Below, piece by piece: positions 28,526-40,025 of a DNA stretch of 64,000 nucleotides (positions are counted from its first letter, which is position 1; each line of letters starts with the position of its first letter). The translations under genes were made by a program, and so were the position numbers. The notes beneath the pieces are model-generated. The model searched no databases. It was not told where the DNA came from and saw only the letters and a program-made list of their open reading frames with translations. The DNA comes from Sialis fuliginosa (taxonomy: Eukaryota; Arthropoda; Insecta; Megaloptera; Sialidae): contig OY540811.1 of NCBI GenBank assembly GCA_961205875.1, positions 17,973,248-18,037,247 on the forward strand, given 5' to 3'.

Positions 28526-29029
28526 TATATAGATATCTAATTTTTAAATTTTTAATGCATTTGACAGATATAATTTTCATTGATTTCCCACTACGTAAAC
28601 GGTAATATTATTTTTGCTTAATATCAAATAACTATGTGTAATAAAAGAGACCATACGAATTCTAGCCCTAAAGACACATATCCAATGTTCCTGAATGCAA
28701 AAAATAACATACTAAACAAAATTAGGGGGAGACAATAATTTCCAACCTGCAGGCGCCACTGTATTGAACTGAATACAACAATATCCATGCAAGTTACGAT
28801 TCTAAACTATAAAACAAACGATTTTGTTATCTAGTGCATTGTACTAGGAGGAGACGTTTCCAGAAAATAGATACGCCTATATTAAATATTGACGTTTTAA
28901 ATAACCATCTTCAACAACAGTCCGTAGAACTAATGGATAATGTTGTCTATTATACAAACATACAATGAAATTGCATTTTCGAAGAACATTTGATACTATT
29001 ATACTTAATCTACATGTACGTATACATTA

Positions 29030-29932
29030 GGGTGTTTTTTATATTTTTTTTTCAGTCCAGCAGGCCTATATGTTTTAATTTTGGATCAAAAGTTAATTGT
29101 CCCAAAATTTCAAACCTGTGGACGGCGCAAACCGAGTCTTTTTCCCATTTGATTAACATGGGAAAAATTACTTTTTTGCTTATGCGTGAATATCTCGTTG
29201 AAAAATTTATTTATTTTAATTTCTTACAGCAGCATATCATAGATCGAATATTTTAAAGATACCTATGTTCGTTTAAACATTATCATAAAAAGTAAAATCC
29301 AATTTTTATGATATTTTTTAAACAAACATTTCTTAAAATTTATTGGATTTATGAATTGAGCACTTATAGTACAGGCAATGAAGGGAAAAATTGCCCTGTT
29401 TTTGGAACAAATTCGGAGTGGAATGAAATTTGGTACCCATATAGTATACATAATAGTACGTCTGTACACAAAAGTCCCCATCCATAGGCCTTGTGGAAAA
29501 AAAATTACAGCCGTTTGAAATTTAATTTAGTTTTTATTGAATAACTTCAAGACAAATAAAGATACCGAGACGTGCCTTACATTAAAATTTTCAAAAATAT
29601 TTGCTTTACAACTTTATTTCAAAATTTTCTCCAACGTATCTACATAGATTGCTGAAAAATCGCCGTGAATCTGAAAACTAAGTGCGTTTAATCAAAAAAA
29701 TATGTTTAAATGGATTTTTAAGATCTTAAAACTGATAATCGAGACAAATGTCCTCTATAAAAGTTGTAGAGAATAAAATTTTACAATTTTTTTTGTAAGG
29801 TACAACATTCGATGTGTAAATTTTTGTTAGATATTTCTATTTTAAAAAGTCAAAAAAACAAATTTTAATTTATAAAATCGTATAAATAGCATGCTATGAA
29901 AATTAGCATTACATAAGAAAATAACATATTGG
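29030..29932 (+). repeat. Left inverted arm of the long-TIR element
   Basis: About 900 bp, inverted copy of 35538-36320. The inner limit is ACATATTGG, directly followed by the hAT start CAGGGCCGGCC. In the other arm the same inner edge reads CCAATATGTT, so the hAT inserted exactly at, or replaced, the arm boundary. Confidence 0.7.
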
Positions 29933-30640
29933 CAGGGCCGGCCGAACGGCCAGGCGACCCAGGCGACAGCCTGGGGCGCTAATTTCGTGGGGGCGCCAAT
30001 TATTTTAAACTTTTTTTCTATGTTCTGTTCTAGGGCGCCAAATTTAAGCTATATATATTTTTTGAATAATAGTTTTGATTTTTTCTGCAAAATAATTCAT
30101 TTTACTTAATAAAATGCTTAATATCAAAAATAAATTATTTATTAAACATTTTTTTACAAAACTTGAAAAGCACAGTGCCAAATCTGTGGGTGGCTTTGCT
30201 AATTCTTGTAACAATTCCGGTTAGTGTAGCTAGTGGTGAAAGAAGTTTTAGTAAATTAAAATAATTCATAAAAACTTATTTGCAATCGGCTATGATAGAA
30301 GATAGGTTGAATAATTTGGCTATTCTTTCAATTGAAAATAAGGTTGTAGCAAACCTCAATTTTGAGACAGCAATCGATAATTTTGCAGATATGAAAGCCA
30401 GGAAGAAATCTTTTATATAATTTTAGTTATATTATATATTATTTATCAATTATATGTTATATTATATTATTATATTAGACTAATGAATTAATAACAAGAT
30501 AATTTTCTCACGCTTTTTTTTTTTTTTGTGCGGATAATTTTTAATGATCGTCACTGTGGCGGTGGAAAGGGGGGGGGGGGGCGTCAAAAGAAATCTCGCC
30601 TGGGACGCCAGAATCGCAAAGGCTAAAAAATATTGTACAT
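29933..30640 (+). mobile_element. Broken hAT element with transposase C-terminus
   Basis: Starts CAGGGCCGGCCGAACGGCC. At 30181-30420, 80 codons encode the C-terminal dimerisation region of a hAT transposase of the ZMYM1-like group: NLWVALLILVTIPVSVASGE, then RSFSKLK, an in-frame stop (30262-30264), and after it SAMIEDRLNNLAILSIEN before a natural-looking end. The catalytic core is missing, so the element is internally deleted and dead. Its right end is unclear; text near 30590-30620 (CGCCTGGGACGCCAG) looks like a decayed inverted end. A G run precedes it at about 30568-30581. Confidence 0.75.
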
Positions 30641-30702
30641 TTTTGCTAATAGATACCTCTGAAAACATTGTTCACGAATGTTAACAAGATGCAATTAAGG
30701 GT

Positions 30703-33700
30703 TAAGAGCATCACGCACTTAAAGACCTTCGCGTGCTACTTCCCTTTTTAAAAACAAGTTAAAACTAAAAAAACAAATTAAAACTCATACGCTAACAAAG
30801 AAGTAAATTGAATAGTTAATATCTCAGCTTGGCGCGATCGAAGAGACTCCAGTTTTTTTTTTAAATGTAGCTTACACTATTATCTTTAAGAGCATCACGC
30901 ACTTAAAGACCTTCGCGTGCTCCTTCCCTTTTTAAAAACAAGTTAAAACTAAAAAAACAAATTAAAACTCATACGCTAACAAAGAAGTAAATTGAATAGT
31001 TAATATCTCAGCTTGGCGCGATCGAAGAGACTCCAGTTTTTTTTTAAAATGTAGCTTACACTATTATCTTTAAGAGCATCACGCACTTAAAGACCTTCGC
31101 GTGCTCCTTCCCTTTTTAAAAACAAGTTAAAACTAAAAAAACAAATTAAAACTCATACGCTAACAAAGAAGTAAATTGAATAGTTAATATCTCAGCTTGG
31201 CGCGATCGAAGAGACTCCAGTTTTTTTTTAAAATGTAGCTTACACTATTATCTTTAAGAGCATCACGCACTTAAAGACCTTCGCGTGCTCCTTCCCTTTT
31301 TAAAAACAAGTTAAAACTAAAAAAACAAATTAAAACTCATACGCTAACAAAGAAGTAAATTGAATAGTTAATATCTCAGCTTGGCGCGATCGAAGAGACT
31401 CCAGTTTTTTTTTAAAATGTAGCTTACACTATTATCTTTAAGAGCATCACGCACTTAAAGACCTTCGCGTGCTTCTTCCCTTTTTAAAAACAAGTTAAAA
31501 CTAAAAAAACAAATTAAAACTCATACGCTAACAAAGAAGTAAATTGAATAGTTAATATCTCAGCTTGGCTCGATCGAAGAGACTCCAGTTTTTTTTTTAA
31601 ATGTAACTTACACTATTATCTTTAAGAGCATCACGCACTTAAAGACCTTCGCGTGCTTCTTCCCTTTTTAAAAACAAGTTAAAACTAAAAAAACAAATTA
31701 AAACTCATACGCTAACAAAGAAGTAAATTGAATAGTTAATATCTCAGCTTGGCGCGATCGAAGAGACTCCAGTTTTTTTTTTAAATGTAGCTTACACTAT
31801 TATCTTTAAGAGCATCACGCACTTAAAGACCTTCGCGTGCTCCTTCCCTTTTTAAAAACAAGTTAAAACTAAAAAAACAAATTAAAACTCATACGCTAAC
31901 AAAGAAGTAAATTGAATAGTTAATATCTCAGCTTGGCGCGATCGAAGAGACTCCAGTTTTTTTTTAAATGTAGCTTACACTATTATCTTTAAGAGCATCA
32001 CGCACTTAAAGACCTTCGCGTGCTCCTTCCCTTTTTAAAAACAAGTTAAAACTAAAAAAACAAATTAAAACTCATACGCTAACAAAGAAGTAAATTGAAT
32101 AGTTAATATCTCAGCTTGGCGCAATCGAAGAGACTCCAGTTTTTTTTTAAAATGTAGCTTACACTATTATCTTTAAGAGCATCACGCACTTAAAGACCTT
32201 CGCGTGCTACTTCCCTTTTTAAAAACAAGTTAAAACTAAAAAAACAAATTAAAACTCATACGCTAACAAAGAAGTAAATTGAATAGTTAATATCTCAGCT
32301 TGGCGCGATCGAAGAGACTCCAGTTTTTTTTTTAAATGTAGCTTACACTATTATCTTTAAGAGCATCACGCACTTAAAGACCTTCGCGTGCTCCTTCCCT
32401 TTTTAAAAACAAGTTAAAACTAAAAAAACAAATTAAAACTCATACGCTAACAAAGAAGTAAATTGAATAGTTAATATCTCAGCTTGGCGCGATCGAAGAG
32501 ACTCCAGTTTTTTTTTAAAATGTAGCTTACACTATTATCTTTAAGAGCATCACGCACTTAAAGACCTTCGCGTGCTCCTTCCCTTTTTAAAAACAAGTTA
32601 AAACTAAAAAAACAAATTAAAACTCATACGCTAACAAAGAAGTAAATTGAATAGTTAATATCTCAGCTTGGCGCGATCGAAGAGACTCCAGTTTTTTTTT
32701 AAAATGTAGCTTACACTATTATCTTTAAGAGCATCACGCACTTAAAGACCTTCGCGTGCTTCTTCCCTTTTTAAAAACAAGTTAAAACTAAAAAAACAAA
32801 TTAAAACTCATACGCTAACAAAGAAGTAAATTGAATAGTTAATATCTCAGCTTGGCGCGATCGAAGAGACTCCAGTTTTTTTTTTAAATGTAACTTACAC
32901 TATTATCTTTAAGAGCATCACGCACTTAAAGACCTTCGCGTGCTTCTTCCCTTTTTAAAAACAAGTTAAAACTAAAAAAACAAATTAAAACTCATACGCT
33001 AACAAAGAAGTAAATTGAATAGTTAATATCTCAGCTTGGCGCGATCGAAGAGACTCCAGTTTTTTTTTTAAATGTAGCTTACACTATTATCTTTAAGAGC
33101 ATCACGCACTTAAAGACCTTCGCGTGCTCCTTCCCTTTTTAAAAACAAGTTAAAACTAAAAAAACAAATTAAAACTCATACGCTAACAAAGAAGTAAATT
33201 GAATAGTTAATATCTCAGCTTGGCGCGATCGAAGAGACTCCAGTTTTTTTTTAAATGTAGCTTACACTATTATCTTTAAGAGCATCACGCACTTAAAGAC
33301 CTTCGCGTGCTCCTTCCCTTTTTAAAAACAAGTTAAAACTAAAAAAACAAATTAAAACTCATACGCTAACAAAGAAGTAAATTGAATAGTTAATATCTCA
33401 GCTTGGCGCAATCGAAGAGACTCCAGTTTTTTTTTAAAATGTAGCTTACACTATTATCTTTAAGAGCATCACGCACTTAAAGACCTTCGCGTGCTCCTTC
33501 CCTTTTTAAAAACAAGTTAAAACTAAAAAAACAAATTAAAACTCATACGCTAACAAAGAAGTTAATTGAATAGTTAATATCTCAGCTTGGCGCGATCGAA
33601 GAGACTCCAGTTTTTTTTTAAAATGTAGCTTACACTATTATCTTTAAGAGCATCACGCACTTAAAGACCTTCGCGTGCTCCTTCCCTTTTTAAAAACAAG

Positions 33701-34650
33701 TTAAAACTAAAAAAACAAATTAAAACTCATACGCTAACAAAGAAGTAAATTGAATAGTTAATATCTCAGCTTGGCGCGATCGAAGAGACTCCAGTTTTTT
33801 TTTAAAATGTAGCTTACACTATTATCTTTAAGAGCATCACGCACTTAAAGACCTTCGCGTGCTCCTTCCCTTTTTAAAAACAAGTTAAAACTAAAAAAAC
33901 AAATTAAAACTCATACGCTAACAAAGAAGTAAATTGAATAGTTAATATCTCAGCTTGGCGCGATCGAAGAGACTCCAGTTTTTTTTTAAAATGTAGCTTA
34001 CACTATTATCTTTAAGAGCATCACGCACTTAAAGACCTTCGCGTGCTCCTTCCCTTTTTAAAAACAAGTTAAAACTAAAAAAACAAATTAAAACTCATAC
34101 GCTAACAAAGAAGTAAATTGAATAGTTAATATCTCAGCTTGGCGCGATCGAAGAGACTCGTTTTTTTTTTAAATGTAGCTTACACTATTATCTTTAAGAG
34201 CATCACGCACTTAAAGACCTTCGCGTGCTCCTTCCCTTTTTAAAAACAAGTTAAAACTAAAAAAACAAATTAAAACTCATACGCTAACAAAGAAGTAAAT
34301 TGAATAGTTAATATCTCAGCTTGGCGCGATCGAAGAGACTCCAGTTTTTTTTTTAAATGTAGCTTACACTATTATCTTTAAGAGCATCACGCACTTAAAG
34401 ACCTTCGCGTGCTCCTTCCCTTTTTTAAAACAAGTTAAAACTAAAAAAACAAATTAAAACTCATACGCTAACAAAGAAGTAAATTGAATAGTTAATATCT
34501 CAGCTTGGTGCGATCGAGGAGACTCCAGTTTTTTTTTTAAATGTAGCTTACACTATTATCTTTAAGAGCATCACGCACTTAAAGACCTTCGCGTGCTCCT
34601 TCCCTTTTTAAAAACAAGTTAAAACTAAAAAAACAAATTAAAACTCATAC
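30703..34650. repeat. Satellite array, 184-bp monomer, about 21.4 copies
   Basis: Monomers start at GAGCATCACGC, first at 30706 and then every 184 bp (three spacings of 182-183) to 34566, ending in a partial copy. Identity between units is very high. Each contains a T9-10 tract, TTGGCGCGATCGAAGAGACT, and a short imperfect hairpin (GAGCA-CGC opposite GCG-TGCTC around CTTAAAGACC). Variant bases show higher-order structure: eight units from 30706 and seven from 32177 share the same ordered series of variants. The penultimate unit (34382) carries GATCGAGGAGA, the form seen in the diverged units near 38.7-39.3 kb. There is no open frame. Confidence 0.95.
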
Positions 34651-35537
34651 ATCATATTTAAAAAAAAAACCTAAGAATATTTTATGGAGAGTCTCGATGG
34701 GAAATTTAAAAAAATGGTTACTACTTTCAATAAGAACGATAACATTGATCAAATAGGAATAAAATTCAGTTTCAATTTTTGAGAGAATCACCCATAATTA
34801 CATAATTTACATAATTTAACACATTACATAGATATATCAATTTACCACACCGTAATTATAAAACAGCTGTAACTTTTGTCCTATGGCTTCAATGTATGGA
34901 GACTTTTTCAGATGCACTCACTAATGTATCTACTACGCTTGTTTGAAAATCCCCATTAATTGATACCCCGAAAGAAATGTTATAAGCGTATCTGTAAACA
35001 GGTATAAATACATAACAAAATATACTTTTATAAAATCGAATTAAACAAATAAATTTATATCTTAACAACCGTTTGATTTAAAAATCAAAATTTTCTATCA
35101 AAATGATCATAATTCAATTGTTCATAATGTACATGCTATACAGAGATACACAATATGTAAATGTCCAAGTAAAAAACGGTTAATTATAAGTGAAAATATG
35201 ATACATAGTAATTTATCATATCAAAATTAAAACAGCTATAATTTTTTTTCCATATCCCCAATTTATGAGGACTTTTGCACATGTCTAATGTAATATAAGT
35301 ACTACATATGTGCAAATTTTTATGATACTCTGATTTTGTTCTTATCTAATATCCGTATTTTGAAGATAAAATAAAATGTCTTGAAGATTTATATTTAAAA
35401 CTATTAAAACATACAATAATATTAATTCTAGGGGCTACAAATTACACCTCAGTACATTGTTATCATAATATGTTATTAAAAGTCTTATTTGAAGTATTGG
35501 AATTATTAATTACTTTTATTTTCTATAATTTTCTATA
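34651..35537. other. AT-rich spacer with degenerate modules
   Basis: Two diverged modules start at about 34862 (AAACAGCTGTAACTTTTGTC, then TGGAGACTTTTTC) and 35233 (AACAGCTATAATTTTTTTTC, then ATGAGGACTTTTGC). A third, inside the right arm at about 35956, reads ACGGCTGTAATTTTTTTTCC, then ATGGGGACTTTTGTG. The spacer therefore seems to be part of the original long-TIR element, built of amplified subterminal modules. No gene. Confidence 0.5.
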
Positions 35538-36320
35538 CCAATATGTTATTTTCTTATGTAATGCTAATTTTCATAGCATGCTATTTATACGATTTTATAA
35601 ATTAAAATTTGTTTTTTTGACTTTTTAAAATAGAAATATCTAACAAAAATTTACACATCGAATGCTGTACCTTACAAAAAAAATTGTAAAATTTTATTCT
35701 CTACAACTTTTATAGAGGACATTTGTCTCGATTATCAGTTTTAAGATCTTAAAAATCCATTTAAACATATTTTTTTGATTAAACGCACTTAGTTTTCAGA
35801 TTCACGGCGATTTTTCAGCAATCTATGTAGATACGTTGGAGAAAATTTTGAAATAAAGTTGTAAAGCAAATATTTTTGAAAATTTTAATGTAAGGCACGT
35901 CTCGGTATCGTTATTTGTCTTGAAGTTATTCAATAAAAACTAAATTAAATTTCAAACGGCTGTAATTTTTTTTCCACAAGGCCTATGGATGGGGACTTTT
36001 GTGTACAGACGTACTATTATGTATATTATATGGGTACCAAATTTCATTCCACTCCGAATTTGTTCTATTTAAATCCCTTCGTTGCCTGTACTATTAATTC
36101 TCTACAAAATATTTTCCTGAGAAATAAAAAAAAATATTCACGCGTAAGTAAAAAAGTAATTTTTCCCATGTTAATCAAATGGGAAAAAGACTCGGTTTGC
36201 GCCGTTGACAGGTTTGATCTACGAGTCTGATATTTTGGGAAAGTTGACTTTTGATCCAAAGCTAAAACATAGGTCTGCTGGACCAAAAAAATAAAAAAAA
36301 TAAAAATAAAAAGAACACCC
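35538..36320 (-). repeat. Right inverted arm of the long-TIR element
   Basis: About 780 bp, the inverted copy of 29030-29932. It ends GAACACCC followed by TA. Relative to the left arm, about 130 bp is missing around 36090-36130. A CATA/TACA microsatellite (ACATACATACATACGAG) lies just outside at about 36335-36360. Confidence 0.7.
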
Positions 36321-36793
36321 TAATGTACAATAATGTACATACATACATACGAGTATCTACATATGTATCATATGTAGGTACTTTCGAGAGTAAACGTAAA
36401 CATTTCATTGTATTTTACTATTGTTGGTGTAAAACCATGGTTGGGCTGAATTAACGCCTACCAACAGGATTATACCACAAACATTTCTAGAGCTTATTAT
36501 TTATATCGTAACGTTATCTTTAATTACAATAAAAAAATTAGTGTGGAGACTGAAGGTTTAATCGAGCGCTGCGTAGATTGTAGAACAATGGTTTTTATAC
36601 TTCTTTAGGTGAAGACATTCTAATATGGGTACTATACAAAATTTCGTGGCACCATTGTACCCTAATTTGACATTTGTTCAATAGTTTTTTAATCAATAAA
36701 GATTTCAGCCCGGGATTATATATTAAAAATAAAAACACTAAATTCGCCAAAAAACAGTGCTGATAACAACTTAACTCTGTGTGAACTTCAGAA

Positions 36794-37696: not shown

Positions 37697-38449
37697 TATA
37701 TATTGAACCGTTCAGAATAGGTATTAACTCCACATTAAAGTGAAGTTTTTTGCTTTGACATTTTCAAAGTACATTTAAAATAAATACGTATATTACATAA
37801 AATACTATTTGATTAGTTTCGACAACGATTATGTCCACTTTTAGTCGACATATCCAATTTTTTCTTTTGTTTCTTTAACACTTTCAATGCTAAAAAGAAA
37901 TTGTTATATTCTTTCGTATGAAAGTAAGTATTAACGATGTTCTGTTTAAACAAACAATTTTAAAATATATAATTTTGTTTATATACTTACCAACAAACAT
38001 TTTTGTAAACGGTACATTTTCTTGCAGGTCCCGTCTTTCCGACATTACGCTGAAGTTTAAACAGAAAACCTTCTCAGTAGGTCAGTGGCCTGAAACAAAA
38101 ATAAATGCATAAATAGTATGTTGCTGTTATTGCATTTAATTTATACAAATCAGTGCTGTGAATTGTTTACTACTTCCATTTATTATTACATTCATTTTAA
38201 GGAATTAATATTCATTGTTTTTCTTTTTAATTAATTACAAATATCATAAAATACCACTTTTAAAATGTTTGAATTGCAACAGATGATGTTTTAAATTAAA
38301 TTAATAAGAAATATATTTCTTAATTTATTTGACTATTTGAAAAGACCAAAAAACTGATTATCGTATAACTTACATTTCCAATAGATACAAAGTACAATCC
38401 AATACCTATATTGCATTTCTTATGATCTTTACGAATCCTAGGCTACAGG

Positions 38450-38696
38450 CAGTGGCGTAGTGAGGGGGGGGGGGGGCAAGGGGGTCTATCATGCCCCGGG
38501 CGCCAAATGGCCCTTAACCTTTTAAACCGCATAGCATAAACCTAATTTATAAAGAGCTGAAGACCTTTTTTTTTTTAGTTACACCATTTTCAACTCAGAT
38601 TTATTATAAAATTATTATTATTTTTTATTTTCTTATTTTTGGGGGCGCCAAAAAGATATCGTACCCCGGGCGCCAATTATGCTTGCTACGCCACTG
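38450..38696. mobile_element. hAT MITE, left copy of the composite
   Basis: 247 bp with ends CAGTGGCGTAGTGAGG and GCTTGCTACGCCACTG. Inner subterminal palindromic words GGGCGCC recur near both ends. A G run at about 38464-38476 follows the left terminus. Nearly identical to the right copy apart from that copy's extra internal segment. Confidence 0.85.
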
Positions 38697-39343
38697 CGAG
38701 GAGACTCCAGTTTTGTTTTAAAATATAGCTTACACCATTATCTTTAAGAGTATCTAATGCCCGAAGACCTTCGCATGTGCCTTCGGCTATTATTAAGAAA
38801 TTTAAATTGAAAATTTAACAAATAAGTTTTATAGTTAATATGTCAGCTTGGCGCGATCGAGGAGACTCCAGTTTTTTTTTTAAATATAGCTTACACCATT
38901 ATCTTTAAGACTATCTAATGCCCGAAGACCTTCGCATGTGTCTTCGGCTATTAAGAAATTTAAATTGAAAATTTAACAAATAAGTTGAATAGTTAATATG
39001 TCAGCTTGGCGCGATCGAGGAGACTCCAGTTTTTTTTTAAATATAGCTTACATTATTATCTTTAAGACTATCTAATGCCCGAAGACCTTCGTATGCTCCT
39101 TCGGCTATTATTAAGAAATTTAAATTGAAAATTTAACAAATAAGTTGAATAGTTAATATCTCAGCTTGGGGCGATCGAGGAGACTCCAGTTTTTTTTTAA
39201 ATATAGCTTACACCATTATCTTTAAGACTATCTAATGCCCGAAGACCTTCGTTTGTGCCTTCGGCTATTATTAAGAAATTTAAATTGAAAATTTGACAAA
39301 TAAGTTGAATAGTTAATATGTCAGCTTGGTGCGATCGAGGAGA
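38697..39343. repeat. Four diverged satellite units (about 160 bp)
   Basis: Units begin at CGAGGAGACTCCAG: 38697, 38858, 39016 and 39176, closing at 39336. They share with the 184-bp array the order GAGACTCCAG-T tract-TAGCTTACAC-ATTATCTTTAAGA-GAAGACCTTCG-GTTAATAT-TCAGCTTGGCGCGATCGA. They lack about 25 bp and differ in the hairpin segment, which here is GCCCGAAG opposite CTTCGGC. Homology is clear, but this is a distinct subfamily. Confidence 0.9.
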
Positions 39344-39660
39344 CAGTGGAGTAGCGAGGGTGGGGCAAGGGGGTCTATCATGCCCCGGGCGCCAAATGGC
39401 CCTTAACCTTTTAAACCGCATAGCATAAACCTAATTTATAAAGAGCTGAAGACCTTTTTTTTTTTTTTAGTCGTGGAAATGTAAAATGTATTTAATAAAT
39501 AAGATTAAATTAAATAAAAACTGAAGACCTTTTTTTTTTTAGTTACACCAATTTCAACTTAGATTTATTATAAAATTATTATTATTTTTTATTTTCTTAT
39601 TTTTGGGGACGCCAAAAAGATATCGTACCCCGGGCGCCAATTATGCTTGCTACGCCACTG
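39344..39660. mobile_element. hAT MITE, right copy of the composite
   Basis: 317 bp with ends CAGTGGAGTAGCGAGG and GCTTGCTACGCCACTG. It carries about 70 bp more than the left copy around 39470-39540, including a second CTGAAGACC-T tract, so a short internal duplication plus insertion is likely. The long stretch from GGGGTCTATCATGCCCCGGG onward is essentially identical to the left copy. Confidence 0.85.
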
Positions 39661-40025
39661 GCTACAGGAGTTTTATTTATAGTTTTACAATTAGTGACGG
39701 ATTGGCAGTTATTGGTCCAGCAAGTAAAAATACTCTTTGTTATAAAATAATTAACTTATACAATTTTTTATAAGTTCCACGTATGTGCATTACATTAATA
39801 TTACACATATATTAATTTATACACCGATACGATATTAAAAGGGAATCCCGAAATTATATTTTTGTCTCAGCTATTTAAAGCAAAATCTATTTAATAGTGT
39901 AATTTTGAAATAGTTTCGAATAGTAACTAAAATATAATATAAATACATAATATTTATATTTTATACAAAAGTAACTATTTTTTAGATTTACCGATTTATT
40001 ATCTAAGGTGAAAAAACGACTCTAG

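Follow-up and report, generated by a model that had tools for sequence, protein, structure and literature searches.

How does a satellite array come to lie between two hAT MITEs, with one 8-bp word repeated at their inner edges and a different one repeated at their outer edges? The arrival of satellites at new chromosomal sites is an old question, for which transposition and circles have been invoked, mostly without readable scars. The window analysed here, a stretch of 64,000 nucleotides from the Sialis fuliginosa genome (C3:17973248-18037247), contains at positions 38442-39668 a block, hereafter W, whose order can be read directly: GCTACAGG, MITE1, CGAGGAGA with four satellite units, CGAGGAGA, MITE2, GCTACAGG (Table 1). 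This nested arrangement of 8-bp duplications is confirmed. The first-pass annotation had reported the identical word at both inner junctions and the different duplication flanking the whole block; both are there, the left and right outer copies agreeing at 8 of 8 bases. It had also described two near-identical hAT MITEs bracketing four satellite units. The bracketing holds, but 'near-identical' does not: the two MITEs, which lie in direct orientation with ends CAGTGG[C/A]GTAG...CTACGCCACTG, are 94-97% alike over their aligned parts, MITE2 is longer by a segment of about 70 bp that MITE1 is without, and the two differ further by scattered private substitutions. A 17-bp stretch kept by most sampled relatives is missing from both.

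Table 1. Features of block W in window coordinates, and the six composite loci with their outer duplications
Feature	Location	Strand	Details
Outer 8-bp target-site duplication, left copy, W	38442..38449	.	GCTACAGG
Left hAT MITE (MITE1), W	38450..38696	+	247 bp; 5' end forms the composite's outer left end
Inner junction word after left MITE, W	38697..38704	+	CGAGGAGA; start of satellite unit 1
Four satellite units, W	38697..39335	+	161/158/160/160 bp, starting at 38697, 38858, 39016 and 39176; unit 1 with rare TTTTGTTTTAAAATATAG variant
Inner junction word before right MITE, W	39336..39343	+	CGAGGAGA
Right hAT MITE (MITE2), W	39344..39660	+	317 bp, long form; 3' end forms the composite's outer right end
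Outer 8-bp target-site duplication, right copy, W	39661..39668	.	GCTACAGG
Composite W	window		outer duplication GCTACAGG
Composite C8	C8:14.92 Mb		outer duplication CCATGGTA (block's orientation)
Composite C7	C7:21.06 Mb		
Composite C3b	C3:17.45 Mb		outer duplication AGTAGAAG
Composite C3c	C3:1.15 Mb		outer duplication ATTCCGTA
Composite C3d	C3:9.07 Mb		

The MITE obeys the 8-bp duplication rule of hAT elements. A pattern of its 26-nt 3' end matches 577 sites at up to two mismatches in the searched genome (392 Mb, 20 contigs). We read the first 50 loci listed, all with an exact 3' end and all on contigs C1 and C2, and dropped seven without a full end pair; the 43 remaining solo copies are therefore not a random draw. 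Their duplications are perfect in 33 cases, with one mismatch in 5, two in 4 and six in 1, whereas among 1,806 cross pairs of left and right flanks from different copies 0 agree at seven or more of the 8 positions, so the matched flanks do not arise by chance. The terminal inverted repeats are short and start with CAG (CAGTGGCGTAG / CTACGCCACTG), as is typical of hAT elements, and on duplications and ends together the MITE belongs to the hAT superfamily. The repeat of about 160 bp is satellite DNA, forming tandem arrays at many loci independently of the MITE: a 30-nt motif of its unit occurs at 716 sites genome-wide at up to two mismatches, and of 19 array loci examined, 16 end without any real match to the MITE (at L024 and L038 the matches are of chance size only). 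A fixed-end satellite transposon, first suggested by BLAST end positions, was dropped, as the true array ends vary.

W might instead be a single longer hAT element with a satellite interior, in which long subterminal repeats happen to look like inner ends. Reviews do describe MITEs that contain tandem repeats, but the repeats of W are flanked by two complete MITEs with their own termini, each carrying both terminal repeats, in direct and not inverted order. The MITE also occurs alone with perfect duplications (33/43), the satellite occurs in arrays without the MITE (16/19 loci), and we regard a single element as highly improbable.

MITE-satellite junctions at CGAGGAGA are found at six loci, W and five more in the genome, on three chromosome-scale contigs. 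With three mismatches allowed, a satellite-to-MITE junction pattern returned 20 candidates, six of them true satellite junctions, and a MITE-to-satellite pattern returned four, three of them true; reversed-pattern controls for both searches gave 0 matches. CGAGGAGA is read at 9 of 9 true junctions, a count that is partly by construction because both patterns include this word and detect no other. All six composite loci are present in a separate, CGAGGAGA-free MITE search too. A junction-like match at C8:337006/336644 (L042, L057) proved to be a solo MITE flanked by a CGATAAGA duplication, not satellite, and C2:772039 (L046), though similar in its ends, holds no satellite. Among the array loci read, the sole MITE-linked exception to the CGAGGAGA junction is the array at C7:12.19 Mb (C7:12186989, L031), which has truncated MITE pieces at both ends and junctions other than CGAGGAGA; we count it against the reading of one founding composite.

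The loci differ in what they retain. All four junctions are kept only at W and C8, and a direct-orientation MITE pair around non-element DNA is complete at these two and present at C7 with truncated outer ends. In the C8 composite a 1.2-kb insertion interrupts the left MITE, and the array includes about 0.7 kb of other DNA; C7 has lost both outer MITE ends; C3b has its left MITE fused to the satellite at a T-run; C3c has intact outer duplications, between which the left MITE is precisely missing along with CGAGGAGA; and in C3d the right MITE alone remains. The insertion in the C8 left MITE (L041, about 1614-2822) is an inverted-repeat element of about 1.2 kb that begins with CAAGGGGAGATT and is flanked by TGA; by eye, each of its arms includes a tRNA-like stretch.

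The outer duplications bear on what was inserted as a unit. At all four loci with both boundaries (W, C8, C3b and C3c) the outer 8-mers match at 8 of 8 bases, and the duplication surrounds the whole composite and not each MITE (4/4). Other hAT-satellite-hAT blocks with outer duplications of their own, which the first-pass annotation had looked to for support, thus exist in C8, C3b and C3c, the last with its left MITE lost; the outer duplication is absent from C7, where both outer ends are lost, and from C3d, where the left end is. By contrast with the perfect duplications of most solo copies, the flanks of six composite MITEs read with both ends (W left, W right, C8 right, C3b right, C3c right and C3d right) are unequal, with 4-7 of 8 mismatches, the inner flank being CGAGGAGA and the outer flank another word. 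The two MITEs of W are therefore not independent insertions each with its own pair of duplications, the case that the annotation had set against its own interpretation, and the best reading is that the composite moved as one unit with its outermost ends.

An empty paralogous site can be seen for one locus. The C3c target is a dispersed repeat, whose flanks joined by one ATTCCGTA occur at 14 sites at up to three mismatches; the best empty site of this type, C8:8449299, is paralogous and has a single ATTCCGTA with 1 mismatch in 29, so the second ATTCCGTA and everything between the two copies most likely came by insertion. The empty-site search for the C8 composite gave 0 matches in the genome, and the flanks of W around GCTACAGG have no other copy in this genome. 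Repeats are prone to assembly artefacts and to segmental duplication, but these six loci lie on three chromosome-scale contigs and the four with both boundaries differ in their outer 8-mers. Nor are their flanks lined up: similarities between the flanks of different composites are few and are not aligned at both insertion points, the C8 left flank having been compared over 31 bases. We find artefact or segmental duplication barely credible as a source of the six blocks.

If blocks moved, did they descend from one founder? The composite MITEs share a 3'-half haplotype, TTACACCA[A/T]TTTCAACT, which is carried by 8 of 8 composite MITEs that retain the stretch, among them 5 of 5 halves at the outer right end, against 0 of 43 sampled solos; fragments too short to score (the C8 left 3' piece, C7 right, C3b left and both L031 pieces) are left out of this count. 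A 5'-half haplotype is found in 3 of 3 outer left halves against 1 of 43 sampled solos. The 3' haplotype is not confined to composites, since it also occurs in two of seven further solo MITEs, L002 and L005, which were fetched as close relatives or junction look-alikes and have perfect duplications (CCTACGTG and CCATGCCA, respectively). We rely on these counts in place of half-MITE trees, which are weak (support 0.10 and 0.79, with solo copies within the clade), the alignment of the 5' half being disturbed by homopolymer runs and by the 70-bp segment. The cargo carries a shared variant as well. The unit adjoining the left junction has TTTTGTTTTAAAATATAG in W, C8 and C3c, that is, in three of four surviving first units (the C7 first unit is without it); among 54 units from other satellite arrays, 0 have it. 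Among the matches listed of the 716 unit-motif sites, TTTTGTTTTAAAATATAGC occurs in W, in C8, in a plain array on C10 and in a bare array on C9.

Other variants are private to single loci. The 17-bp deletion common to both W MITEs is absent from the other composite MITEs, and both C8 MITEs are without an A before GTTACACC, a variant that the other composite MITEs do not have. The 70-bp segment is absent from W left, C8 left, C8 right and C3d right and present in W right, C7 left, both MITEs of C3b and C3c right (shortened). The locus-private variants of W and C8 mean that a single jumping founder needs later conversion between its MITEs; local duplication at each locus would account for them as well. 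They also fit a local capture, in which both ends of a freshly replicated resident MITE would insert into a satellite circle or array by alternative transposition, independently at each locus. Such a process predicts whole satellite units, duplication of the inner target word, an old outer duplication and left and right MITEs copied from one resident, and it has a precedent in the alternative transposition of maize Ac ends with 8-bp duplications, as described in parts of PMC4270019 and PMC9910405. It would, however, have to hit the identical 8 bp of a unit of about 160 bp at each event. The target preference of the MITE family, estimated from 39 duplications, is weak and places CGAGGAGA only at rank 11 among the 158 8-mers of the satellite unit, which makes repeated independent insertion at this word unlikely. 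As local capture also predicts neither the first-unit variant common to W, C8 and C3c nor the shared rare MITE haplotype, we judge it improbable.

A second way to dispense with block transposition is recombination with circles. Satellite circles bearing a MITE could recombine with resident solo copies from that MITE's subfamily, turning X-MITE-X into X-MITE-satellite-MITE-X; the anatomy would be the same, with shared inner junction and cargo and locus-specific outer duplications, and the subfamily does include solo members flanked by perfect duplications, L002 and L005. The outer halves would then be drawn from residents, yet the outer halves that can be tested have haplotypes found in 0 of 43 (3') or 1 of 43 (5') sampled solos, unless recombination required near-identity. 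At W, the resident and the circle would both need the 17-bp deletion unseen in other composite MITEs, and no circle or donor has been seen. We consider this route unlikely, though it deserves somewhat more weight than local capture.

Junction, cargo and a rare MITE haplotype are thus shared while the outer duplications are specific to each locus, and because of this combination one founder moved by hAT transposase is the simplest account. We conclude that W is probably a natural hAT composite, or macrotransposon, one of several descendants of a founding hAT-satellite-hAT unit spread by hAT transposition; the composite interpretation of the first-pass annotation is in this sense supported. The mobile unit would be bounded by the two outermost MITE ends (5' of the left copy, 3' of the right copy), with the satellite as its cargo. 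The founder, presumably formed once, may have arisen in either of two ways. A MITE may have entered the satellite, after which MITE and units were duplicated; this is the founding step that the annotation had proposed. It had expected other hAT copies inserted at CGAGGAGA within satellite units, and the genome junction searches found no hAT MITE with satellite on both sides at this word. Alternatively, both ends of a replicated MITE may have inserted into a satellite circle at CGAGGAGA in one step, leaving X-MITE-CGAGGAGA-satellite-CGAGGAGA-MITE-X, in which X is the old duplication of the MITE; this route would explain why the units are whole and why no satellite-MITE-satellite donor is seen. 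The whole unit would then have been carried to new sites by transposase, the likely source of which is an autonomous hAT elsewhere with predicted CAGTGGCGTAGC ends; Dimer_Tnp_hAT matches are common in the genome (150 scored of 613 candidates). Gene conversion between paired MITEs may homogenise them, and after landing, single terminal MITEs may be lost by excision or deletion while the satellite stays behind.

Such losses raise the possibility, which we advance tentatively, that the composite is a self-erasing satellite vector: macrotransposons would plant arrays and then lose their MITE ends, and some bare arrays would be former cargo. The bare array on C9, of about 14 units, starts at CGAGACTCC, the junction word shortened by 3 bp, has the same rare first-unit variant and ends exactly at CGAGGAGA, with CCTTGA on both sides and one extra base on the right. 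This is what excision of both terminal MITEs could leave, as judged post hoc from one array. A search for CGAGGAGA array ends without a MITE, using a pattern whose fixed first and last letters make it blind to MITE junctions and to the C9 end, gave 19 matches, of which 18 look like mutated units and one is an array end: at C5:1463088-1463117 (- strand) the array stops exactly at CGAGGAGA and is followed by non-satellite TATTGTAT (one end read).

The satellites of this genome have further associations. The arrays at L010, L023 and L024 (C10, C6 and C3) adjoin an identical sequence, CCTATCCTAGTCCCATTTCA..., a second recurrent satellite boundary. Elsewhere in the window, a large element spans positions 29023-36327; its long inverted arms (29405-29932 and 35538-36065, 99% complementary) are accompanied by further arm pieces. 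Within it lie 21.5 units of a 184-bp satellite (30702-34650), a relative of the 160-bp satellite, and a Dimer_Tnp_hAT fragment at 30148-30339. On C1 and C2, 13 clusters of the 184-type motif (..AAAATGTAGC) are listed, and inspection by eye places 10 of them no more than 5 kb from a listed Dimer_Tnp_hAT fragment; this proximity among the matches listed suggests that a high-copy element carries the 184-type satellite in its interior.

Searches of the open-licence literature listed no title or start of an abstract in which a satellite is the cargo of a composite hAT element. As far as the available parts of the sources go, what is already known is composite hAT transposition in maize and MITEs with internal tandem repeats in animals; what appears new, within the open-licence literature searched, is a satellite cargo between two MITEs at several natural loci with nested duplications. 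At several loci these 8-bp duplications preserve both the inner junction of the founder and the site at which the outer ends landed, and they make the transposition route directly testable. Extrachromosomal circles, as presented in sections of PMC5615363 and PMC13192020, are the standard proposal for satellite dispersal, but circles alone would give neither matching 8-bp duplications nor transposon ends around an array, and W has both.

Closer to the composite are MITEs with internal tandem repeats, of which reviews, in their accessible portions, list Xenopus miDNA4 and Xstir, clam MITEs and lepidopteran (GTCY)n MITEs. Like these, the block in the window consists of tandem repeats carried by a non-autonomous DNA transposon; there, however, the repeats lie inside the termini of one element, whereas the satellite here is independent and lies between two complete MITEs. 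At inversion breakpoints of Atlantic cod, tandem hAT MITEs are associated with tandem repeats of about 167 bp, according to part of PMC12368964, but those repeats belong to the inverted arms of the MITE, and the available text of that report does not describe a composite bearing target duplications both at its inner junctions and around it.

The nearest parallel is in maize, where, in the portions of PMC9910405 and PMC4270019 available, Ac/Ds macrotransposons and Composite Insertions show the hAT ends of two neighbouring elements working as one unit, and where excision by closely linked Ac ends leaves a modified 8-bp footprint before reinsertion (PMC9910405, which cites Huang and Dooner 2008; PMC4270019). 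The composites described here resemble these macrotransposons in their paired hAT ends acting as a unit and in the 8-bp duplications that bound the inserted block. As far as those portions go, the maize cargo is DNA around the p1 locus in genetic stocks, whereas here it is satellite between two MITEs, at several loci of a reference genome, and, unlike in the maize macrotransposons, junction word and cargo are common to several loci. If our reading is true, paired MITEs offer satellite repeats a direct route to new places in the chromosomes, and hAT macrotransposition, known from maize genetics, extends to the natural evolution of genomes, with satellite DNA as cargo.
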